Source: Pseudomonadota bacterium
GTDB lineage: Bacteria > Pseudomonadota > Gammaproteobacteria > Burkholderiales > Burkholderiaceae_C
Reading direction: 5' to 3'
Assembly: GCA_021819435.1 (NCBI GenBank)
Contig: JAKARB010000007.1
Span: forward strand, 1 to 64,000
DNA length: 64,000 nt
The notes under the pieces were generated by a model, which saw nothing but the letters and a program-made list of their open reading frames with translations, was not told the DNA's origin and made no database searches. Every line of letters starts with the position of its first letter. Position 1 is the stretch's first letter. The position numbers and the translations under genes are program-made. Shown here piece after piece: positions 50,746 through 62,743 of the stretch.

Positions 50746-51303
50746 TCAGGCTGCGGCCAGCAGGGCGGCGGTGTCGAACACGCTGCTCATCGGGGGCAGG
50801 TTCATGATCATCGGGGCCGGCGCGTTCTTGGAGACCTTGACCGGCTTGACGTTCGGATCGTTCTGGGCGACTTCAGCCTTGTCCCAGTTGCCCGCCGACT
50901 CCTTGCCCGATACGGCGATCGAGTAGAAGACGCGGAAGGGGATCTTGCGCTCGCCCCAGAAATCGGCCGCGTCGCGGAAGGCGTCGAGCAGTTGCTCACG
51001 CGTTTCACGGTCAACGTTGCCGCCGGGGATCAGCTCCAGCACGACGACGAAACCGGGTTGCGGCCCCGACTTGTGCACCATGTCCGTGATGCAGTCGTAG
51101 AGGGCGTCCAGGTTCTTGCCGAAGTGGTCGGGGAACAGGAAGTCACGCGCGATGATGTCCAGCACGTCCTGCTTGTCCCGGGCGCCGCCCAGGTTGGTAT
51201 ACAGGAAGTGATGGCCTGCGGCGTTGGCAGCCTGTTGCAAGTCTTCCGGGCGGTAGGCGCGGATGGATTGAACGATGTTGGGTCGAACGGATTGCAACAA
51301 CAT
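50746..51303 (-). CDS. Barstar-family RNase inhibitor
   Basis: 185 residues from ATG at 51303. The barstar core is seen in HHFLYTNLGGARDKQDVLDIIARDFLFPDHFGKNLDALYDCITDM, with the GGARDK and PDHFGKNLDALYDC signatures. The C-terminal part (PGFVVVLELIPGGN, then ERKIPFRVFYSIAVSG) is typical of the longer Burkholderiales version. It is cytoplasmic and would neutralise the RNase coded just upstream, before export. Gene order is RNase then inhibitor on the minus strand, 107 bases apart. Confidence 0.9.
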   Translation of the reverse strand: MLLQSVRPNIVQSIRAYRPEDLQQAANAAGHHFLYTNLGGARDKQDVLDIIARDFLFPDHFGKNLDALYDCITDMVHKSGPQPGFVVVLELIPGGNVDRETREQLLDAFRDAADFWGERKIPFRVFYSIAVSGKESAGNWDKAEVAQNDPNVKPVKVSKNAPAPMIMNLPPMSSVFDTAALLAAA

Positions 51304-51410
51304 GATCGCTTGGGGCCCATGGTGCACCGAGGGGTCGGCGTCCGGGCGGGCTGTTGAGGGTCAGAGAAAGAGCGGTGGGCTTCGGGGCGGGTCAGGCCCT
51401 TCGGCGGGGG

Positions 51411-51890
51411 TCAGCGGCGGGGATCGATCTGCTGGAAGCTTGCATAGTGATCCCGCGTGTAGAAACAAGTTTCAGGTTGTCGAACTTCTTTACCTCCGCA
51501 GACGATGCGTCGTGCACCACGATCGCGTTCGCCGGGCGTTGGCACGGTGTATTCACGATAGAAGCCGCGCGGCCGACGTGGCAGCAAACGTTCCCGGTTA
51601 CCGAAAACAGACCCGTCCTTGGTGTGGCGGAACGGGACCCCTTCGTGGATGCGCCGGTGAACATCTTGTGCCTGCACGGGCAGTTCGCTCAAGGCGATGA
51701 CCTGGATTCGCCGCGCCTGTTCTGTTTCGGCTCCACCTTGGCGACCGTACGAGTTGTACGGCGGATTCGCCTGGGTGAAGGCCTCGACCGGAGGCGCCGC
51801 CAGCACGGCCAGCGATGTCGCCAGGACCAGCGTGACGTTGCGAAAGAGTGTTCGGGTCAACGGGTGAACGAACCGGTGTGTTGTCAGCAC
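51411..51890 (-). CDS. Secreted guanyl-specific RNase (barnase/RNase Sa type)
   Basis: 159 residues. A Sec signal (NVTLVLATSLAVLAAPPVEA) precedes a microbial RNase N1/T1-type domain: ALSELPVQAQDVHRRIHEG, FGNRERLLPRRPRGFYREYTVPTPG (with the catalytic-type Glu113), GARRIVCGG (Arg) and FYTRDHYASF (His148). Cys131 and Cys142 can form a disulfide. It cleaves RNA after guanosine, probably outside the cell or in the periplasm. It forms a pair with the barstar-family gene, a toxin-antidote arrangement widespread in Burkholderiales. Confidence 0.9.
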   Translation of the reverse strand: MLTTHRFVHPLTRTLFRNVTLVLATSLAVLAAPPVEAFTQANPPYNSYGRQGGAETEQARRIQVIALSELPVQAQDVHRRIHEGVPFRHTKDGSVFGNRERLLPRRPRGFYREYTVPTPGERDRGARRIVCGGKEVRQPETCFYTRDHYASFQQIDPRR

Positions 51891-52072: not shown

Positions 52073-54367
52073 TCAGCGCAGGGCGTTGGCGTCGGCCACG
52101 GTCATGGCCGTCATGTTGACGATGCGGCGCACGGTAGCCGAAGGCGTCAGGATGCACACCGGCTTGGCCGCGCCCAGCAGCACGGGACCCAAGGCAATGT
52201 TGTTGCCCGCAGCCACCTTCAGCAGGTTGTACGAGATGTTGGCGGCGTCGATGTTCGGGCAGACCAGCAGGTTGGCTTCGCCGGTGAGGGTGCTGCGCGG
52301 CATCATCTGCTGGCGGTAGGCGGCATCCAGGGCGGTGTCGCCGTGCATTTCGCCGTCGATCTCCAGCCAAGGGGCGCGCTGCTGGATCAGCGCCAGCGCC
52401 TCGCGCATCTTCACGGCGGAGGGCTGGTTGCTCGAGCCGAAGTTCGAATGCGAGAGCAGCGCGGCTTTGGGGCGCTGGCCGAACCGCATCATCTCCTCGG
52501 CGGCCATGATGGTGATCTCGGCGAGCTGCTCGGCCGTGGGGTCGTGGTTGATGTGGGTGTCGAGGATGTTGACGGTGCGGCCAGGCAGGATCAGGCCGGT
52601 CATGGCGGCGTAGGTCTTGACGCCCTGGCGCTTGCCGATGACCTGGTCGATGTAGTGCAGGTGCAGGGCGGTGTTGCCCCAGGTACCGCAGATCAGGCCG
52701 TCGGCGTCGCCCTTGTGCACGAGCATGGCGCCGATCAGGGTGAGGCGGCGGCGCATCTCGATCTTGGCCATCTGCTCGGTCACGCCCTTGCGTTCGGTCA
52801 GGCGGTGGTAGGCCTGCCAGTAGTCGCGGTAGCGCGGGTCGTTCTCGGTGCTGACCAGGTCGATGTCGACGCCGGGCTTGAGGCGCAGGCCGAAGCGCTC
52901 GATGCGTTGCTCGATGACGCCGGAGCGGCCGATCAGGATCGGGCGGGCGATGCCCTCGTCGACCAGGATCTGGGCGGCGCGCAGCACGCCTTCGTTTTCA
53001 CCTTCGGCGTAGGCGATGCGCTTGTTCTTGGCGCGCTTGGCCACGCTGAAGATCGGCTTCATGGTCTGGCCGGAGGCGTAGACGAAGCTCTGCAGGCGTT
53101 CGGTGTAGGCGACGTAGTCGGTGACCGGGCGGGTGGCGACGCCCGAGAGCACGGCGGCCTGGGCCACGGCCGGCGCGATCTTGATCATCAGGCGCGGATC
53201 GAAGGGCTTGGGGATCAGGTACTCGGGCCCGAAGCTCAGGTTGGCGCCCACGTAGGCGGCGGCCACGACGTCGCTTTGCTCGGCCTGCGCCAGCTCGGCG
53301 ATGGCGTGCACGGCCGCGATCTCCATCTCGTCGGTGATGGTGGTGGCGCCCGAGTCAAGCGCCCCACGGAAGATGTAGGGGAAGCACAGGACGTTGTTGA
53401 CCTGGTTGGGGTAGTCGGTGCGGCCGGTGGCCATGACGGCGTCGTCGCGCACGGCCTTGACCTCTTCGGGCAGGATCTCGGGCGTGGGGTTGGCCAGGGC
53501 GAAGATGATGGGCTTGGCGGCCATCTTGGCGACCATCTCGGGCTTGAGCACGCCGCCGGCCGAGAGGCCCAGGAAGATGTCGGCGCCTTCGATGGCCTCG
53601 GACAGCTTGCGCTGCTCGGTCTTCTGGGCGAACTGGGCCTTGTCGGGGTCCATCAGCTCGACGCGGCCTTCGTAGACGAGGCCGGCCAGGTCGGTGACCC
53701 AGATGTTTTCGCGCGGCACGCCGAGCTTGACGAGCAGTTGCAGGCAGGCCAGGGCCGCCGCGCCGGCGCCGGAGGTCACCAGCTTGACTTCCTTGATGTC
53801 CTTGCCGACGACCTTCAGACCATTCATCAGCGCCGCGCCGACCACGATGGCGGTGCCGTGCTGGTCATCGTGGAAGACGGGGATGTTCATGCGCTCGCGC
53901 AGCTTGCGCTCGACGTAGAAACAGTCGGGGGCCTTGATGTCTTCCAGGTTGATGCCGCCGAAGGTGGGCTCCAGGCTGGCGATGATCTCGACGAGCTTGT
54001 CCGGGTCTTTTTCGTTGATCTCGATGTCGAAGACGTCGATGTCGGAGAACTTCTTGAAGAGGACGGCCTTGCCTTCCATCACGGGCTTGGCGGCCAGCGG
54101 GCCGATGTCGCCCAGGCCGAGCACCGCCGTGCCGTTGGTGATGACGGCCACGAGGTTGCCCCGGCTGGTGTACTTGAAGGCGTTGGCCGGGTTCTCGACG
54201 ATTTCCTCGCAGGGGGCGGCCACGCCGGGCGAGTAGGCCAGGGCCAGGTCGCGCTGGTTGGTGAGCTGCTTGGTGGCGCTGATGGCCAGTTTGCCGGGCG
54301 TCGGGTACTCGTGGTACTCGAGGGCGGCTTTCTTGAGCTCGGCGCGTTTTTCTTCAGGGGTGGTCAT
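52073..54367 (-). CDS. maeB: NADP-dependent malic enzyme fused to phosphotransacetylase-like domain
   Basis: 764 residues. It oxidatively decarboxylates malate to pyruvate, producing NADPH. The N-terminal malic-enzyme half shows [73 protein letters not shown] and the nucleotide site [16 protein letters not shown]. After about residue 430 a phosphate acetyl/butyryltransferase-like domain follows ([50 protein letters not shown]), with no obvious catalytic role and known as a regulatory part in MaeB. It is the normal fused length. Confidence 0.96.
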
Positions 54368-54518: not shown

Positions 54519-57500
54519 TCAGAAGAGGGCCTGGCGGGTGAGGCCGGTTTCGCGGTCCCACTGGACGTCCATGTGCCAGCCACCAGCCGGGTCCTGGCGG
54601 GTTTCGATCAGGGCCAGGCCATCGCCGTGGGGCGCGAAATCGGTGTCCACCCGGCAGTGGAAATGCTCCAGCCGGCCTTCGTGAAGGTCGGTGAAGGTGA
54701 AGCCGTCGTGCACGTGGAAGTCGTGGGGGCGGCTGTTGGCGAAGGGGTAAGGCGCGTACAGGGCGGAGCTGTGCACGGAGTGGGCCACCACCTCGCGCTC
54801 GGGGCCATCGCCCTCGCGGCGGATGCGCAGGCGGGCGATGCAGGAGAGGTGCTCGTCTCCAGACAGGAAGACGACGTGGCGGGCCTGGATGCGGCAGAGG
54901 TGGGCCAGCAAGGCGTGCAGGCTGCGGGGGTAGGCCTCCCAGGCGTCGGCGAGCGTGGCGCTGGCCGGCCGCAGGGTGTCGGACAGCAGCCGGCGCGGCA
55001 GCAGGATGGACGGGCTGGCAACGAAGGTGGGGCGGTCGTCGGGGCCGTGGTGGGCCAGCCAGGCCAGCAAGCAGGCCCATTGGGCGCGGCCCATGATGCG
55101 GGCGTGCTCGAAGTGGGCGATGCCGCGCGGTTCGCGCTGGGTGCGGGTGTCGGCCATGAACAGGGGCAGGCCGCGATGGGTGAAGGCGTACCACAGGCGG
55201 GCCGGACGCGAGGTGGGGTCACGCGGGTCGATGGGGTGACGCACGGGCTGGGCAAAGCGCTGGTGGTGGCGGTAGGCGCGCAGGCCGTCGGCGCGGCGCT
55301 GGCGGTTGTCGTCCCAGGGGAGGTCGGCGGAGGTGTGGTCGCCGTCCAGCCAGCTCCAGTTGTCGACGATTTCGTGATCGTCGATGAGGGTGTGCACAGG
55401 CACGCCGGCCAGGGCCTGGCGCAGCAGGCGTTGCGCGAGCATGGCCTGGTGCGGCTGCTGGAACCGGGCGCTGGCGGTGCGCGGGTCGAACAGGCCGGCG
55501 GTGGCGTCGGCGTAGATTTGGTCGCCCGAGAGGATGGCGAGCTCGAGCGGCGGGTGGCCGCTGTGAGCGTTCTGGGCGCGCCAGCGGTGCAGGCGTTGCC
55601 AGACGTGGTCGGGCGGGCCAGGCAGCCAGCCGGGGCCGGGCGGTGTGCGTTCGGCCAGGCTGCCGGGGTAGAGGCAACTGGCTAGGGCGAGCACCCACGG
55701 GCCATCGTCGCGGCAGTGGCCATCAGCCAAGCTGGCCCGAGGCGGGCATGGCACCCAACATGGCTCGCCTGCAGGATGGGCGGGGGGTGAGATGGGGCTG
55801 TCGATGGGCTCGATGGCCGCCGCCAGCACGGCCTCTACGATGCGCGCGCGCTCGGCCTGGTTCGGCGTGCGGGCCGGGCCTTGCACGAGGAAGAAACCCA
55901 GCTCATGACCCGGCCCCGGCCACCAGCTCGCGGGCACGGCCAGCGTGCGCACCGTGGAGAGGCCTGCGTCGCGCACGCTGCCCGCCTGAGGCCAGGGCAT
56001 CAGGTGAGGCTCTTCGAGCCGGCCATCGGGGCAGCGCGGCACGCAGGCGATCAAGGTGGGCATCGAGCGAGAGGGGTCGCGCCCGATGGAGACAGGCCAA
56101 TGCGGCACCCCACCCCGCCAGTCGGGCGACGAAAAAGCCGTGCCCAGGAAAGGCCCCAGCGGCACGGCGCTCACCGTGGGAGCCCAGGGGACGGGTGCCA
56201 TGGGCTCGGAGGGCTCCACGGGCTTGGTCGCAGGCGCCCCAACTGAAACCGCTTCATCGCGCAAGAAGAAGTCGAGCACCAGTGGAAAGACCACCTGCGG
56301 GGCATGGATGCCGATCAGGCAGTCCTGGTGGCCATGGCCTTCGATGATGTGATGGGTGAAACGGGTTGCGAGATCTGGCCCCAGCTCGTCGACCAGGGCA
56401 CGAAAGCGCAGCAGGCCCCGGACGTCAGACAACGCGTTTTCGCGGCCGTGCACGCTCATCACAGGGGTGCGTTGCAGGACCTTGGCGAGGCGTTCGGGCG
56501 GCACGCCGTGCGCTTCGCCATCGGGCCGGGCCAGGCCGCCTGCACGGGCCATGTGCAGCGCCTGGGTCAGGGTGGCCAGGCTGAGCGGGCCGAAGTGTTC
56601 GTCGATGGCTTCGAGCACGCTGGGTGGCAAGTTGGCCAGCTTGAAGTCTCGGCCGTAGAGCAGGTCCATGCGGTGGCGGCTGCCCGCCCATGGCACACGC
56701 GCTGCGGGCGGCCACAGCGGGTTCTCGCGGCGCCATTCGTCGGGCGGGTAAGGCAGGGTCGAGAGCAGCCGATCGAGCAGGCTGTCGGCGAAGCTGGCTT
56801 GCGCGGGCGGGCGGAATTGGAAGGGACCTTGCGGCAGCAGGGCGAGGGCTTGCTGGGCAATGAAGGCGCGAAACAGGTTGTCGGGGGCGAAGCTCACCAA
56901 GGGCGCGACCTGGCTCATGCCAATGCGGCGGATGCGCTCAGGCATCGCCTGGCGCAGCGTCTCGTGTTCGAGGTGCCCAGGCATGGCGTCGCTGAGCAGC
57001 CCCATCCAGAGCATGGCCGAGCCCATGCAGTGTGCGAAGACATCGATGGGGCGCTCGCCGGTGTGCCGCCAGATGTGGTCGATGGCCAGGGGGATGTCGT
57101 GGTGGGCGACGTCTTCGAAGGTCCAGGGGAGGATGGCAGTGGGCAGGCCAGGGCTGGTGCGCAGGTCGGCCACCCAGACGTCGAAGCCGGCATCCCACAG
57201 CGTGCGGGCCAGGCCGCGCGGCACCGAGGGATGCAGGAAGGTCGTGCCGCCGGCGCTGTAGCCGTGAAGCAGCAAGATGGGCTGGGCCTCGGTGGCGCGA
57301 CCACGCAGGCGGCTCAAGCGCAGGCGCACCGGGGAGCCATCGGCCTGGTCGGGGGCCACGGTAAGTTCGGTGACTTCGTGCGCGGGCAAGCCATCGGAGG
57401 CGTCGGGCAAGCAGCGAGGCAGGAGGTCGACGGAGCCAGCGCGGGGCGGATCGGGCAAGCGCAGGCTCCAGACGTGGGTGTGCAGCAGCAGGCGCGTCAT

Positions 57501-60272
57501 CCACAGGCCCAAGCCGATGAGGTCGATCCAGGTGTCAGGCAGGTGATGCTGCTGGCTCACGCGCATCAGCGCCAGGCCCTGCTCGGCCAGGTGGGCCAGA
57601 TCAAGGCTGAGCACCGGACCACGGGTGCGATGGCGCAGGCCGGGCGCCTGCGTCAGGGTCACGTTCATGAGCTGCAGCCAGGGGTTGCCGCCAACGGTGT
57701 AGCTCAGGCGTTTGTGGCCGACGATGTGCTCGCCCGCCCAGGGGCCGTCGCCCAGCACCTGCAGTTCGTAATCGAAGCGGCGCACCTCGCCGGCACGGCT
57801 GGCCAATTGGCAGGCACCTCGCGTTCGGCGGAACAATTCGTCGATCAAGGAACGCTGAGGCCCCGTGCCTTGCGGCACGCGCCGCGATCGTTCGGCCAAG
57901 CGTTCGACAAGCCGCTGGCCGGCATCGCGCCAGCCCCGGTTGCCGCACCAGGCCCACAGCCCCCGCGCAGTGCGACGCAGCGGGCCGCTGGGTTCGCGGT
58001 GCAGCAGTCGCAACTGGCCCTGCAAAGGCTGCCGGTCAATGGTGAAGGCTTCATGCCAGGGGTCACCGCCATGCTCATCCACCTCGGCTTGGGATGCACG
58101 CCGCACGCGACGCACGGCGCTGTGGCCCGGACTCACCCGCAAAGTGCGGGCGCCGGGTTTGCCGCGCACCAGGGCCTGCAGGTCTTGCGGGCCGAAGCGC
58201 AGCGTGAGTTCGATGCCCGTGTCGCCCCACCAACCACGCAGGCGCTCCCCCAACTCGACACGCGTGCGCTCATGGGGTTGCGGCTCGGGCATGGGGCGCA
58301 GACGAGGGCGTTGCCTCAGCAGGCCAGGCGCCGCTTCAGCGGCCTGCCAGCCCCATTTCTCGCGCAGCCGTGTGACGCCACGTTGCGCGAGGGTCGCGAT
58401 GGTGAGGGCGGGATTGGTGCCCAGCGAGCCCGGCACGATGGCGCCATCGAGGACGACCAGGCCTTCGTGCACACCACGACCGTCGTTCACACGCGGGTCG
58501 AAGGCCTCACCCAGGTCATTGACCACGCCGCGTTCAGCGTCCTCACCCATCGCACAACCGCCGAGGGGATGGACGGTCAGCAGCGGGCCGCGCTGTTTTC
58601 CGAAGAGATCTTCCAAGGTGTCGGGCAGGGGCCGCCAGGCAGGGTTGGGCAGCACGCGGGTGCGCCAGCCGCGTTCCACGCAGTGCTGCACCAAGGCCTG
58701 CTGGCGGGCTGCGAAGCCTGGGTCTTCAGCCAAGGAGGGCCAGGCGATGTCAAGTTGGCCGTCCGAAGGCGGCAGGGGATCGTCCGCGATGCGCAGCCGC
58801 AACCGGCCGTCGGCCCCATCGTGGCCAATGAGGGCCACCGCCATCGAGCGCCCCGTCGCAGCCTCTGTGACAGCCAGCGGGTCGGCCTCGTCGGGCTCAC
58901 CGGTGTGCCGGCTGGCATCGGTCTCACCCAGCGTGTGCAGCGCCCTCGCCGTTGCAAAGACTTCCTCGAAGACGCGGCGCATCGGCCCTGGCACAGCCAG
59001 GTCCTCGATCACATGGGGCAAGGCACCCGATGGCCGCTGGTCGAAGATGCCGGTGATGGTCGGGCCCACGCCGCGCACCGCGGGAGGCTGGGCCTCGTCG
59101 GCCACGCCGTTGATCGGCACGCCTTGACCGTGCTCGTCGTGCACATCGTGCAGCACAGCGATCATGTCGCCATTGCCCGAGAAGCGTTCGCCCAGGCGCG
59201 TGGACAACGGCAGATCAGGGCTGCGCGAGCGCAACAGCAATTCGGTGGAACCCAGGGTGCCGGCGGCCACGATCACGCGCCGCGCGCGCAAGGTGTGCGG
59301 ACGGCCCTCGCGCTGCTGGGCCTGCTCATCGGTGTGGATCACCGTCACATCCCAGCCCATGTCAGCAGGGCTCAGACGCCAGGCCGTGGCGCCGGTCACC
59401 ACGCGAGCGCCCAGGCGCTTCGCACGCGCCAGCAGGTTGGTGTCGAGCGAGACCTTGGCGTTGTGGTTGCAGCCGGTGGCGCAATCACCGCAATGCAGGC
59501 AGGCGTCGAGCTGCACGCCGTCTGCGCTGGGCTGAGCCCGCAGCGCGACGGTGATCGGGGCTTCGCGCAATGAACCGGACCCGGTCAGCGTCTCGAACGC
59601 CTTAAAGCGCTGCGGCGGGCAGCCAGCCGAAGCCACGCCATTCACGCCCCCATGCGGATCATCGGCCAAAGCGCCATCGCCGACCCATTGGCGCGCACCG
59701 AGCACCCCAGCGAGCGAGCGAGCGCGCAGCGCCAGATCGGCGCGCTCGTCGCGGATCACTTGCGGCCAGTGTGCCTGCTCGAAGACGGCGGCATCGGGCC
59801 AGTCCATCACGCCTGCGTTGATGAGCGAGCCACCACCCAGGCCGTTGCCGACCAGGGCGCAGATGTCGGCGTGGATGCGCACGTCAAAGAGGCCATCGCG
59901 CCGCCCGCTCACGCCCCCGCGACCCGCCATGCTGAAGCGCACATGCCCGGGCAGTTCACCCAGTTCCGAAGGGAATGAGCCAGGCAGGTGTTCCTGCCCC
60001 CGCTCCAGCACCCACACCCGAGCGACGCGACCATCGGGCAGGCGGCTGCCAGCCAGTTCGGCGGCCGCCACCGCGCCGCCATAGCCACTGCCCAGGATCA
60101 GCACATCGCAGTGGCAACCCGACTCGTCGGCAGGCAACTCACCCGTGCGCAAGCCATGCAACACGCTCTCCCAGCCTTCGGACAACCAGCGTGCCTGCGA
60201 GGCCGGTGCACGCTGGCCGGCGGGCTCAGGCTCCGGAAGCGACCCTTTCGTCGCGTGGCTCCACAGGGGCAT
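54519..60272 (-). CDS. Giant three-domain protein: GMC oxidoreductase + alpha/beta hydrolase + PhoD-like phosphoesterase
   Basis: 1917 residues. The start at 60272 has AAGGAG seven bases upstream and overlaps the kinase gene by 47 bases. Residues about 55-640 resemble cholesterol-oxidase-type GMC flavoproteins: FAD motif GSGYGG (61-66), GNGLGGGSLIN (142-152), a four-Cys CxxCxxCxxxC (258, 261, 264, 268) like that of related dehydrogenases, and HPLGGCAMG (568-576). Residues about 965-1340 form an alpha/beta hydrolase: LLLHGYSAGG (1001-1010), elbow AHCMGS with Cys1082 in the nucleophile position, and EGHGH. Residues about 1525-1917 are PhoD-like: ASC (1531-1533), GDQIYAD (1583-1589), DDHEIVDNW (1631-1639), GDEH (1805-1808). 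No signal peptide is visible. No single reaction can be assigned; sterol or lipid oxidation, ester cleavage and phosphate release are possible. Confidence 0.85.
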   Translation of the reverse strand: MPLWSHATKGSLPEPEPAGQRAPASQARWLSEGWESVLHGLRTGELPADESGCHCDVLILGSGYGGAVAAAELAGSRLPDGRVARVWVLERGQEHLPGSFPSELGELPGHVRFSMAGRGGVSGRRDGLFDVRIHADICALVGNGLGGGSLINAGVMDWPDAAVFEQAHWPQVIRDERADLALRARSLAGVLGARQWVGDGALADDPHGGVNGVASAGCPPQRFKAFETLTGSGSLREAPITVALRAQPSADGVQLDACLHCGDCATGCNHNAKVSLDTNLLARAKRLGARVVTGATAWRLSPADMGWDVTVIHTDEQAQQREGRPHTLRARRVIVAAGTLGSTELLLRSRSPDLPLSTRLGERFSGNGDMIAVLHDVHDEHGQGVPINGVADEAQPPAVRGVGPTITGIFDQRPSGALPHVIEDLAVPGPMRRVFEEVFATARALHTLGETDASRHTGEPDEADPLAVTEAATGRSMAVALIGHDGADGRLRLRIADDPLPPSDGQLDIAWPSLAEDPGFAARQQALVQHCVERGWRTRVLPNPAWRPLPDTLEDLFGKQRGPLLTVHPLGGCAMGEDAERGVVNDLGEAFDPRVNDGRGVHEGLVVLDGAIVPGSLGTNPALTIATLAQRGVTRLREKWGWQAAEAAPGLLRQRPRLRPMPEPQPHERTRVELGERLRGWWGDTGIELTLRFGPQDLQALVRGKPGARTLRVSPGHSAVRRVRRASQAEVDEHGGDPWHEAFTIDRQPLQGQLRLLHREPSGPLRRTARGLWAWCGNRGWRDAGQRLVERLAERSRRVPQGTGPQRSLIDELFRRTRGACQLASRAGEVRRFDYELQVLGDGPWAGEHIVGHKRLSYTVGGNPWLQLMNVTLTQAPGLRHRTRGPVLSLDLAHLAEQGLALMRVSQQHHLPDTWIDLIGLGLWMTRLLLHTHVWSLRLPDPPRAGSVDLLPRCLPDASDGLPAHEVTELTVAPDQADGSPVRLRLSRLRGRATEAQPILLLHGYSAGGTTFLHPSVPRGLARTLWDAGFDVWVADLRTSPGLPTAILPWTFEDVAHHDIPLAIDHIWRHTGERPIDVFAHCMGSAMLWMGLLSDAMPGHLEHETLRQAMPERIRRIGMSQVAPLVSFAPDNLFRAFIAQQALALLPQGPFQFRPPAQASFADSLLDRLLSTLPYPPDEWRRENPLWPPAARVPWAGSRHRMDLLYGRDFKLANLPPSVLEAIDEHFGPLSLATLTQALHMARAGGLARPDGEAHGVPPERLAKVLQRTPVMSVHGRENALSDVRGLLRFRALVDELGPDLATRFTHHIIEGHGHQDCLIGIHAPQVVFPLVLDFFLRDEAVSVGAPATKPVEPSEPMAPVPWAPTVSAVPLGPFLGTAFSSPDWRGGVPHWPVSIGRDPSRSMPTLIACVPRCPDGRLEEPHLMPWPQAGSVRDAGLSTVRTLAVPASWWPGPGHELGFFLVQGPARTPNQAERARIVEAVLAAAIEPIDSPISPPAHPAGEPCWVPCPPRASLADGHCRDDGPWVLALASCLYPGSLAERTPPGPGWLPGPPDHVWQRLHRWRAQNAHSGHPPLELAILSGDQIYADATAGLFDPRTASARFQQPHQAMLAQRLLRQALAGVPVHTLIDDHEIVDNWSWLDGDHTSADLPWDDNRQRRADGLRAYRHHQRFAQPVRHPIDPRDPTSRPARLWYAFTHRGLPLFMADTRTQREPRGIAHFEHARIMGRAQWACLLAWLAHHGPDDRPTFVASPSILLPRRLLSDTLRPASATLADAWEAYPRSLHALLAHLCRIQARHVVFLSGDEHLSCIARLRIRREGDGPEREVVAHSVHSSALYAPYPFANSRPHDFHVHDGFTFTDLHEGRLEHFHCRVDTDFAPHGDGLALIETRQDPAGGWHMDVQWDRETGLTRQALF

Positions 60273-62037
60273 CGAGTACTCCTTCCTCCAGTGTGTCCAT
60301 CACGGCTTTGAGCAGCACTTCCACCGACACGGGCTTGTGCAGCATGCGCAGGCCCGCCTGCCGGGCTTCGAGCAGCCGGTCCTGGGCGGTGTCGCCACTG
60401 ATCAGCATGGCGGGCAGGTCCGGCTGCTGCTGGCGCAGCTTGCGGATCGCCTTGATGCCACTTTCCTCGCCGCGAAGGCGGAAGTCGGCCAGCACCACAT
60501 CGGGCGGGTCGAGGCTGGCCAGGCGCATGGCCTCATCGGTGCAGGCTGCCAGCGTCACGCGGCATCCCAGCGACTCGAGCAGCGTCTTCATGGCCACGCG
60601 CACGCCGGCTTCGTCATCAAGCACGAGCATGTGGCACAGCGGCATGGCCGCAGATTCGGTGGGCTCCTCCAGCGGCACGACCTCCGAAGCCTCGGCCAGC
60701 GGCAAGCACAGCGACACGGTGGTGCCCACGCCAAGCTCGGACTCCAATTGCACCGGCAACGCCAGCAGGCGGCCCAGACGCTGCACGATCGACAGGCCGA
60801 GCCCGAGGCCGCGCGTGCGATCGCGCTCCGGGTTGTCGACCTGATAGAACTCTTCAAAGACTTTGCCAAGATCCTTCTCGGCGATGCCCCGGCCTGTGTC
60901 CTTGACACTCAGGTGCAACTGCTCGCCCTCGCGTCGCGCCAGCAACCAGACCTGGCCGGCATCGCAGTACTTGATGGCGTTGTCGAGCAGGTTGCCGACG
61001 ATGCGCTCGAGGTGCAAAGGATCGGTGTGCACGACCATGTCACCCTCGACCGCGCAAGTGAGCTGCAGCCCCTTGGCGTGCGCCTCCTCTCGCTTGGCGT
61101 CGCACAGGCGGCGCAGCATGGGGCCGATGTCGCAGGGCCGCGCATGCACGGAAACGATGCCCGCATCGAGCTTGGACATGTCGAGCAAAGCGGTGAGCTG
61201 CGAGCGCAATGCGCTGAGCGCGGCGTCCATGTGCGTGAGGATGCGGCGCGCCGATTCGTCGACCGAGTGGGTCATCAGCGCGGCGCAGAACAGCGTCAGG
61301 GTATGCAGCGGCTGGCGCAGGTCATGGCTGGCCGAGGCCAGGAACCGGGTCTTGGCAGCGTTGGCCTCTTCGGCCTGCTCCAGCGCCGAGCGCAACTGCT
61401 CATTCAGGCGGATTTGCTCGTTGCGCATCTCCACCGACTCGACCAGCGCGCGGTAGTTGTCGCGCGCCAGGCCGTTTTGCACCGCCAGGAAAGCCAGGCA
61501 CAAGAAGGACATGGCCCCATCAACCAGCAGGCTCGAGCCATGGTGGGGCGTGAGCGCCCAGGCCACCGCCAGGCCCAGCATCACCGGCAGCGCGAAGGCA
61601 TTGAAGATGCGCGGGTGGCCGTTGGTGGTGCCCACCGCGCCGGCCGTGATCCCGGCCAGCAGGATCGACACCACCGCGCGCTGCAGGTCGGTCATGCCAT
61701 AGAAAAACAACACCGCGCTGCCTTGCACCACGCCGTTGAATCCGCTGAGCAGCACGGCAGTCTGCATGCGCTGATCATGCGGCCGGGTCGAGCTCGGCAG
61801 CATTCGCAGCACGAACCAGCGCACCGCCTGCATGCCGATGACGGCGATGGCCCAGCCCAGCAAAGCCCAGTGGGGCACCTCGTTCCAGGCCATGGCCAGC
61901 ACGAACAACGCCGACAAGCCGACGGGCCAAGGCACCTTCTCGACCTGCCTGGCGATCAGTTCCAGGACTTCGACATCGGCATCGAGTGGCGCAGCGCGCA
62001 AGGATCCCTTGCCCGACAACAGGTGCTGAGTGGGCAT
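60226..62037 (-). CDS. Hybrid histidine kinase with N-terminal membrane sensor
   Basis: 603 residues from ATG at 62037. Five to six membrane helices (about 40-185) lead through a coiled coil (AEEANAAKTRFLASA) to the dimerisation helix with His238 in SASHDLRQPLHTLTLF. The ATPase domain has LLDNAIKYC, KDTGRGI and GLGLGLSIV, and a C-terminal receiver has Asp518 in VVLADFRLRG. The lack of a periplasmic sensor suggests membrane or lipid signals. The gene follows the response regulator by 10 bases, and its stop overlaps the giant ORF start by 47 bases, so the three genes are co-translated and the kinase probably controls or senses products of the giant enzyme. Confidence 0.92.
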   Translation of the reverse strand: MPTQHLLSGKGSLRAAPLDADVEVLELIARQVEKVPWPVGLSALFVLAMAWNEVPHWALLGWAIAVIGMQAVRWFVLRMLPSSTRPHDQRMQTAVLLSGFNGVVQGSAVLFFYGMTDLQRAVVSILLAGITAGAVGTTNGHPRIFNAFALPVMLGLAVAWALTPHHGSSLLVDGAMSFLCLAFLAVQNGLARDNYRALVESVEMRNEQIRLNEQLRSALEQAEEANAAKTRFLASASHDLRQPLHTLTLFCAALMTHSVDESARRILTHMDAALSALRSQLTALLDMSKLDAGIVSVHARPCDIGPMLRRLCDAKREEAHAKGLQLTCAVEGDMVVHTDPLHLERIVGNLLDNAIKYCDAGQVWLLARREGEQLHLSVKDTGRGIAEKDLGKVFEEFYQVDNPERDRTRGLGLGLSIVQRLGRLLALPVQLESELGVGTTVSLCLPLAEASEVVPLEEPTESAAMPLCHMLVLDDEAGVRVAMKTLLESLGCRVTLAACTDEAMRLASLDPPDVVLADFRLRGEESGIKAIRKLRQQQPDLPAMLISGDTAQDRLLEARQAGLRMLHKPVSVEVLLKAVMDTLEEGVLDAPVEPRDERVASGA

Positions 62038-62047
62038 CGGCGCACCG

Positions 62048-62743
62048 TCAGGGTGATGGCGCCGCCGACGCGGGCGGCGCCGAGCGCAAGGCACTGAACA
62101 GCTGCAACTCGTGCGCGCGGTACATGGCCTGTGCGCGATTGCTCACGCCCAGCAACTGGTAGACGGCCCACAGGTGGGCCTTGACCGTGCCTTCGGCGAT
62201 GCCGATTTCGCGCGCAATGACCTTGTTGGGCTTGCCTTGCAGCAGACAGCGCAGAACAGCCAGTTGTCGGGGGCTGAGCTCTTGCGGCCAGGTGGGCGCA
62301 GGCTCGGCGGGCGACGGCAAGGCATCGGCGGCTGGGCCAGGCTGGCGCAAGGCCTCGGGGGGAAGGTAGGTGCCCTGGGCCAGCACCAGGCGCAAGGCCT
62401 GGATGGTCACGCTCGGGTCGGTGGTCTTGGGCACGTAGCCGGCAGCGCCATGCTGGATCGCGCGCTGGATGGTTTCAGGCGATTCGTCTCCCGAGACCAC
62501 CACCACGGCGGCCGCTTCGAACATCGTCTTGATCCGTGCCAGCGCCTGCATGCCCTGGCTGCCAGGCATGTTCAGGTCCATCAAGACCAGGTCGAACACC
62601 TGGCCCTGAAAGGACTCGGCGTCTTCGGCCGAACTCCCCTGCTCGACGCGCACGGACGGCTCCAGCCCCATCAGCAGGCCCTTGAGGCCTTCGCGAAAGA
62701 GGGGGTGGTCGTCGAGCAAGAGGACGCGCATGCCGGGATTCAT
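62048..62743 (-). CDS. LuxR/NarL-type response regulator
   Basis: 231 residues. A receiver domain (MRVLLLDDHPLFREGL, phospho-acceptor Asp56 in LVLMDLNMPGSQG, AVVVVSGDES, GYVPKT) is joined by a Pro/Ala-rich linker to a LuxR-type helix-turn-helix (LSPRQLAVLRCLLQGKPNKVIAREIGIAEGTVKAH in part, VSNRAQAMYRAHEL). It is cognate to the following hybrid kinase, with which it forms an operon. It probably controls its own promoter and the giant ORF downstream. Confidence 0.93.
   Translation of the reverse strand: MNPGMRVLLLDDHPLFREGLKGLLMGLEPSVRVEQGSSAEDAESFQGQVFDLVLMDLNMPGSQGMQALARIKTMFEAAAVVVVSGDESPETIQRAIQHGAAGYVPKTTDPSVTIQALRLVLAQGTYLPPEALRQPGPAADALPSPAEPAPTWPQELSPRQLAVLRCLLQGKPNKVIAREIGIAEGTVKAHLWAVYQLLGVSNRAQAMYRAHELQLFSALRSAPPASAAPSP

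Follow-up and report, generated by a model that had tools for sequence, protein, structure and literature searches.

We describe here a bacterial gene in which three enzyme-type domains are encoded in one reading frame. It lies in a stretch of 64,000 nucleotides (nt; the whole stretch is called the window) at the start of contig JAKARB010000007.1, from a Pseudomonadota bacterium of the Burkholderiaceae_C. On the minus strand, a single unbroken open reading frame (ORF) of 1917 codons begins with an ATG start and encodes the protein P0001, in which a GMC oxidoreductase domain, an alpha/beta hydrolase domain and a PhoD-like phosphoesterase domain follow one another. These three domains form one conserved ORF, the same parts are found in relatives as one gene or as two adjoining genes, the active-site residues are invariant, and a kinase gene adjoins most of the loci. 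An earlier note on this DNA had reported the fusion from the letters alone. As a whole this observation is confirmed by the uninterrupted ORF, its good ribosome site and the full-length relatives in the genus, and the motifs that were quoted for the three domains are all present in the translation. The features of the gene are listed below (aa, amino acids).

54519 to 60272, minus strand: whole three-domain ORF, 1917 aa (ORF translation; full-length relatives)
60279 to 60289, minus strand: ribosome site GGAGGAAGGAG, read directly, with the ATG 6 nt downstream
58353 to 60140, minus strand: GMC oxidoreductase domain, aa 45-640, cholesterol-oxidase-like (Pfam, profile search, alignment)
59469 to 59501, minus strand: four-cysteine motif C-x2-C-G-x-C-x2-G-C, aa 258-268, predicted iron–sulfur (Fe-S) site (conservation; spacing compared with the dehydrogenase BcGDH, see below)
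57321 to 58352, minus strand: middle region, aa 641-984, conserved but diverged, without Pfam match
56238 to 57320, minus strand: alpha/beta hydrolase domain, aa 985-1345, acid-lipase-like (Pfam, profile, alignment)
57027 to 57029, 56436 to 56438 and 56328 to 56330, minus strand: hydrolase residues Cys1082, Asn1279 and His1315 (alignment)
55698 to 56237, minus strand: region ahead of PhoD, aa 1346-1525; a stretch of similar length also precedes PhoD in the split genes
54522 to 55697, minus strand: PhoD-like phosphoesterase domain, aa 1526-1917, metal-site residues present (Pfam, alignment)

The Pfam check that the earlier note had proposed places the first and the last domain above the cut-offs. 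GMC_oxred_N (PF00732) matches at aa 135-349 (2.8e-10, 40.8 bits versus a cut-off of 23), GMC_oxred_C (PF05199) at aa 508-629 (6.1e-9, 37 bits versus 24.6) and PhoD (PF09423) at aa 1575-1840 (6.5e-25, 88.4 bits versus 27). The hydrolase domain stays below: Abhydrolase_1 at aa 998-1090 gives 3e-4 and 21 bits, under the cut-off of 25.8, and 25.7 bits when the domain is searched alone. The E-values of a profile built from 29 such domains are 9e-17 for gastric lipase and 5e-13 for lysosomal acid lipase, so that the fold assignment is sound. For the middle region neither a Pfam match nor a convincing solved relative by profile was found (best E 0.16), and the first 154 aa of the region ahead of PhoD likewise gave no Pfam match.

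Active-site residues of the three domains

The best profile match of the GMC domain is class I cholesterol oxidase (PDB 1coy, 1b4v, 4rek; 3e-43), which aligns with the fusion in the FAD (flavin adenine dinucleotide) motif and in the HPLGGC and NP regions. The catalytic pair of cholesterol oxidase is His/Asn, as stated in the accessible part of PMC6719666, and His568 and Asn620 are invariant in 38/38 aligned rows. Unlike the aligned solved cholesterol oxidases, which lack the four-cysteine motif, the fusion carries Cys258, Cys261, Cys264 and Cys268 in addition to its extra domains. All four are invariant in the 38 rows, and the motif is found in all 8 further loci with a visible GMC part (46/46). 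Cys258, Cys264 and Cys268 show the spacing C-x5-C-x3-C, which is equal to that of Cys212, Cys218 and Cys222, the ligands of the 3Fe-4S cluster in the FAD glucose dehydrogenase of Burkholderia cepacia (BcGDH) according to the text seen of PMC6719666. The catalytic subunit of this enzyme (PDB 6a2u, 8hdd) is matched by profile at 5e-11, and its fourth cysteine lies elsewhere; the comparison is one of cysteine spacing and of rank among the profile matches, without a residue alignment. A relative from Pseudonocardia keeps exactly these three cysteines and has Gly at the position of Cys261. This spacing suggests that the GMC domain is a dehydrogenase rather than an O2 oxidase, and the electrons would then go to a different acceptor. 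The flavin "oxidase" that had been proposed thus becomes doubtful. P0001 also reaches only 127 bits with the cholesterol oxidase model NF058674 of NCBIfam, for which the cut-off is 850.

Two other cholesterol-oxidase-like GMC proteins are encoded in the same genome, both without the cysteine motif. The same four-cysteine motif is present in a stand-alone GMC protein of another genome (G143, L110 6727-8544), with no hydrolase or PhoD match nearby. GmcA of Rhizobium was considered as the same protein and rejected: the accessible part of PMC7105596 describes a GMC protein of 550 aa, which is too short.

In the hydrolase domain the residues differ from those of the nearest solved enzymes. Gastric and lysosomal acid lipase (PDB 1hlg, 1k8q, 6v7n; profile matches of 9e-17 to 5e-13) align at the catalytic His, and we take acid lipases to carry Ser, Asp and His at the three positions. 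In the fusion their Ser is replaced by Cys and their Asp by Asn. The nucleophile position is Cys in 38/38 rows and in 9 further loci (47/47). The acid position is Asn in 37/38 rows and in 8 further loci (45/46, with G662 not read there), and the lone exception is the second copy in G056, the end of which is apparently out of frame, so that its His is doubtful too. With this reservation the catalytic His is found in 38/38 rows. Measured against a serine ester hydrolase or acid lipase, the domain therefore has the His, and has neither the Ser nor the Asp. For the hydrolase, the earlier statement of intact catalytic motifs is not correct in its usual meaning, and "de-esterifies" has become doubtful. 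Cys nucleophiles of this fold are known from acyl transfer, for example in polyhydroxyalkanoate (PHA) synthases, and ester hydrolysis is for this reason not to be assumed.

Cys and Asn are also found in two stand-alone relatives, from Rhodococcus and Pseudonocardia, the latter beside a GMC gene. The Rhodococcus protein (L103 4980-6053) ends a polyketide synthase and thioester reductase cluster. A link to PHA synthesis had been prompted by a weak PhaC match (E 3e-4) and a PhaE neighbour in one Rhizobium relative. It was dropped because a nearby gene of 369 aa seemed unlike a PHA synthase, as judged by inspection, with no search aimed at it.

The PhoD domain resembles alkaline phosphatase D (PDB 2yeq), which is matched by profile at 2e-15 and aligns in the DDHE and GD-H motifs. 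The metal-site residues, which we presume to be metal ligands, are kept in 30/31 rows, the exception being the degenerate PhoD of G067. Compared with alkaline phosphatase D, the fusion joins PhoD to two other enzymes and its N terminus has no hydrophobic segment, as read from the sequence with no signal predictor used; the fusion protein is probably cytoplasmic. The NCBIfam model for alkaline phosphatase PhoD, NF058638 (cut-off 1000 bits), lists no match for P0001, and gives 22 bits for the split PhoD of G457. At L052 4370-6136, a PhoD-like gene with lost metal-site residues adjoins a GMC-hydrolase gene, and no sensor kinase was found beside it.

Occurrence as one gene or two

We searched 42 genomes of the genus, of which 11, the own one included, match at E ≤ 1e-30. 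G430 (83% identity) and G427 (79%) align over residues 1-1917. G435 (80%) aligns over 1-1518, and its PhoD end sits at the end of another contig. A locus of Aquabacterium parvum (L028), found by peptide pattern, has DNA in common with G427, which makes Aquabacterium very probably the genus to which the window belongs. In a plasmid collection 58 records match, and 7 of these, all from Ensifer, align over 80% of the query or more, with 36-37% identity; two of the seven were examined, and one record annotates the fusion as a single coding sequence. The architecture, which the earlier note did not know from elsewhere, is thus present on Ensifer plasmids and in other genomes of the window's family. 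Including the window, we could inspect 34 loci with a PhoD part.

One ORF, 13 loci: window, G430, G427, two Ensifer, G034 second copy, G030, G056 first copy (from an indel-rich assembly), G115, G082, G307, G291, G662 (1884 aa)
Separate PhoD gene, 18 loci: G036 (Methylibium), Roseateles, G034 first copy, G077, G075, G007, G067, G028, G097, G457, G433, G452, G432, G451, G447, G029, G506, G056 second copy
Broken by contig ends or frame, 3 loci: G435, G187, G109 (GMC part on another contig)

In the split loci a GMC-hydrolase gene of 1308-1395 aa, where complete, is followed by the PhoD gene, with a 4-nt overlap in several cases. Among them, G028 is spread over two contig ends, the contig with the locus lacks the GMC part in G447 and G029, and the frame is disturbed in G451 and in the second G056 copy. 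The counts leave out five of the seven Ensifer records with at least 80% coverage, Persicobacter, a second Rhizobium record, the GMC-only or PhoD-only matches (G143, G098, G012, L033) and weaker matches. GMC and hydrolase occur together in every locus of this protein family where both are visible on one contig and the frame is undisturbed. The three domains are hence not always separate proteins, since one ORF is seen in 13 loci and PhoD stands apart in 18, and the independent full-length relatives speak against a frameshift or assembly error.

In wider samples the three-domain or two-domain proteins are rare. At E ≤ 1e-40, 7/274 genomes of the class sample, 4/200 of the phylum sample (the own genome in both) and 2/121 in the family of G506 match, all three counts including two-domain relatives. 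At E ≤ 0.001, 60/150 genomes match, mostly via the GMC part alone, and among phages one record has a weak GMC-only match.

The two-domain GMC-hydrolase proteins (about 1120-1332 aa), annotated as "alpha/beta fold hydrolase" or "GMC oxidoreductase", share the first two domains with the fusion and, in the 13 more distant loci examined, the same four Cys and the Cys at the nucleophile position. They lack the PhoD domain; still, another phosphoesterase gene adjoins in 6 of the 13. A calcineurin-like phosphoesterase is found in G078, G069, G403 and Variovorax, with Metallophos above the cut-off in the three tested (Variovorax, G403 and G078) and G069 assigned by similarity. The adjoining gene of Azospirillum is different, being annotated as a metallophosphoesterase with 19.5 bits in Pfam versus a cut-off of 21.5, and G349 has an adjoining PhoD-like gene (22.5 bits versus 27). 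In G403 (L095 2536-10624) a related kinase/regulator pair lies beside the two-domain locus as well as the calcineurin-like gene. One calcineurin-like neighbour of a distant relative weakly matches an anti-phage phosphoesterase model (20.4 of 420 bits); P0001 itself has no PADLOC match that would indicate a defence role.

We built trees of the front part (38 rows; a quick method with branch support from the Shimodaira–Hasegawa-like approximate likelihood ratio test, SH-aLRT, only) and of PhoD (31 rows). They agree in most of their main clades, which indicates that the parts travel together; G082 takes different positions in the two. If G435 and G187 are counted as fused, 6 changes are required on the front tree, at least 4 of them forced by starred branches, and if G109 is counted as fused, 5 are required on the PhoD tree, at least 2 of them forced. 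Inside the genus, the fused clade groups with split-gene species. Because the trees show the fused and the split state in alternation, even within the genus, the fusion is neither an assembly error nor a one-off, and fusion, fission or both have probably taken place more than once, as far as the trees tell. A further fusion with the kinase was suggested by an ORF of 2377 aa in G056 (L057 4201-11334; hybrid kinase plus GMC, hydrolase and PhoD). It was rejected, since it is probably an artefact of the reading frame in that assembly: the junction holds a homopolymer run, and the near-identical assembly ends differ by 22 gap openings in 12 kb. With this reservation, the enzyme part of the ORF is included in the 13 single-ORF loci.

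Adjoining sensor kinase and neighbouring genes

Upstream of the fusion lie two regulatory genes:

60226 to 62094, minus strand: hybrid sensor histidine kinase with hydrophobic N-terminal part, HisKA, HATPase and REC (Pfam; conserved neighbour)
62048 to 62743, minus strand: LuxR-type response regulator (REC and GerE), nearest curated model ErdR (Pfam, NCBIfam)

The ATG of the fusion lies inside the 3' end of the kinase gene, with an overlap of 47 nt. The upstream flank is hidden in 4 of the 34 loci (G109, G447, G187, G029). In 25 of the 30 loci with a visible flank a hybrid kinase adjoins the unit on the same strand, 23 times upstream and twice downstream (G433, G432). In the four loci that do not belong to the class of the window (G506, G662 and the two from Ensifer, an alphaproteobacterial genus), a divergent AAA/guanylate-cyclase-like regulator is found instead, one tested by Pfam and the others assigned by similarity. 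G067, which is also the locus with the lost PhoD metal-site residues, has neither.

The nearest curated models are NahK/ErcS' (NF041832, 297.5 of 400 bits) for the kinase and ErdR (NF041830, 123 of 390) for the regulator. According to the text seen of PMC12997753, ErcS'/NahK is encoded in the ped alcohol-oxidation cluster of Pseudomonas, and ErdR has a part in the use of acetate and in swarming induced by ethanol. The likeness to this pair is therefore a weak pointer to alcohol chemistry. A difference may lie in the hydrophobic N-terminal segments of the kinase beside the fusion. For PedS1, the parts of the same review that were seen describe a soluble protein in the text and predict a membrane protein in the table.

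On the other side, the fusion gene is followed by a malic enzyme joined to a phosphate acetyltransferase domain (52073-54367, minus strand), which is present in 5 other loci of the genus set. Beyond it lie, both on the minus strand, a barstar gene (PF01337, 4.6e-25; 50746-51327) and an adjoining guanyl-type ribonuclease gene (PF00545, 5.6e-20; 51411-51890), which form a barnase/barstar-like pair.

Interpretation and rival explanations

Our best explanation is a genuine multi-step enzyme that is encoded in one operon with its own two-component system, and our confidence in this explanation, taken as a whole, is evenly balanced. The GMC domain would oxidise an alcohol group of a lipid-like molecule, with FAD handing the electrons to the predicted Fe-S cluster, and this in turn to an acceptor that is not O2. 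The hydrolase-fold domain with Cys-His-Asn would bind an acyl group of that molecule in thioester linkage and then hydrolyse or transfer it, and the PhoD domain would remove a phosphate or a phosphodiester head group. The kinase would sense substrate or product and switch the operon, and the fusion may provide equal dosage and the hand-over of a poorly soluble intermediate. All statements on function that are more detailed than oxidation, acyl chemistry and removal of phosphate, with a lipid-like molecule as substrate, we infer from the sequence. A more specific version can be put forward tentatively: a system that modifies lipids and is coupled to a sensor. Three enzymes would work one after another on a single lipid, namely an Fe-S GMC dehydrogenase, an acyltransferase of the thiol (Cys-His-Asn) type that descends from acid-lipase-like hydrolases, and a metallophosphoesterase. 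The GMC-hydrolase core would be common to all lineages, which would differ in the phosphoesterase recruited next to it (the PhoD type or one of at least one calcineurin-type family).

Several observations weigh against the multi-step enzyme. For 7 of the 13 two-domain relatives no adjoining phosphoesterase was found with the queries used (Leptospira, Rhizobium and Bernardetia by annotation; G065, G201, G551 and G578 by similarity and crude gene calls, so that some may be missed), and G067 keeps an adjoining PhoD without the metal-site residues, whose activity is seemingly dispensable there. No hitchhiker or cytochrome subunit was found among the Pfam-tested neighbours in the window (kinase, regulator, malic enzyme, ribonuclease and barstar). 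Neither the kinase nor the regulator reaches the cut-off of NF041832 or NF041830. In addition, the parts seen of PMC12997753 report that NahK has a role in signalling related to nitric oxide and biofilms, and that ethanol use by P. putida was not affected when erdR was deleted. AlphaFold models of the two halves, made with 6 and 8 sequences, have a mean pLDDT (predicted local distance difference test) of 31.4 and 32.0. Finally, several tree rows show long branches and uneven composition, which makes the number of fusion or fission events unsure.

Among the alternatives, an assembly or frameshift error that joins separate genes has next to no probability. Some species of the genus do carry PhoD as a separate, adjoining gene; against an error, the fusion recurs at 79-83% identity in three more genomes of the genus (interrupted in one by the end of a contig), and the single coding sequence of the Ensifer record and the independent full-length relatives refute it. 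It is rather unlikely that the domains are co-expressed for convenience, act on unrelated substrates and are fused neutrally. The ease with which the fusion seems to be gained or lost between overlapping adjoining genes would fit, as would the degenerate PhoD kept by G067, but order and active sites are conserved across 34 loci from two or more of the phylum's classes, and the other phosphoesterase genes beside 6 of the 13 distant relatives point the same way. Processing of a signal lipid, which the enzyme would make or destroy and the adjoining sensor kinase would read, is less probable still. An adjoining kinase, with a receiver and several hydrophobic segments, is present at 25/30 loci, and oxidation, acyl transfer and dephosphorylation could conceivably mature such a signal. 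The nearest curated kinase models, however, are not lipid-signal receptors, and the four loci outside the window's class have the AAA/cyclase-like regulator instead of a kinase.

We give a similarly low probability to the degradation of a sterol or of a steryl ester or phosphate, in which a cholesterol-oxidase-type GMC domain, a cholesteryl-ester-hydrolase-type domain and a phosphatase would cooperate. The nearest solved relatives do point to it, namely cholesterol oxidases on the one hand and gastric lipase and lysosomal acid lipase/cholesteryl ester hydrolase on the other, and the His/Asn pair of cholesterol oxidase is conserved. Yet the low score with the cholesterol oxidase model, Cys-His-Asn in place of Ser-His-Asp and the two other cholesterol-oxidase-like proteins of the genome argue against it. 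We also searched 44 genomes for KshA_C, a marker for the cleavage of steroid rings; among carriers, G109, Roseateles and Ensifer lay outside this set. Only 3/28 carriers match at E ≤ 0.001, G115 strongly and G082 and G056 marginally, compared with 5/16 non-carriers of the genus, all marginally, so that no association is seen. In the other 25 of the 28 carriers, among them the window's genome, KshA_C was not found, in a search without a known steroid degrader as positive control; a mere sterol oxidation or another route would be compatible with this absence.

From the interpretation of the earlier note, the three-domain polypeptide therefore stands through the full-length relatives in the genus, and one joint line of chemistry through the adjoining genes in relatives, while the oxidase, the de-esterification and the sterol are weakened. 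The component families are known. In the papers found, among them PMC7105596, PMC13066512 and PMC6719666 (accessible in part, with subscription papers largely outside the search), the architecture, its combination with dedicated regulation, the predicted Fe-S site of the GMC domain and the Cys-His-Asn residues are not described.

If the multi-step enzyme is real, three enzyme families would be linked in one co-regulated line, and a single genus would offer, in its fused and split forms, a natural example of how genes fuse and separate. It would also mean that Fe-S clusters are to be predicted in GMC proteins that resemble "oxidases", and that relatives of acid lipases that use Cys-His-Asn may transfer acyl groups rather than hydrolyse them, features that the usual annotation "alpha/beta fold hydrolase" hides.

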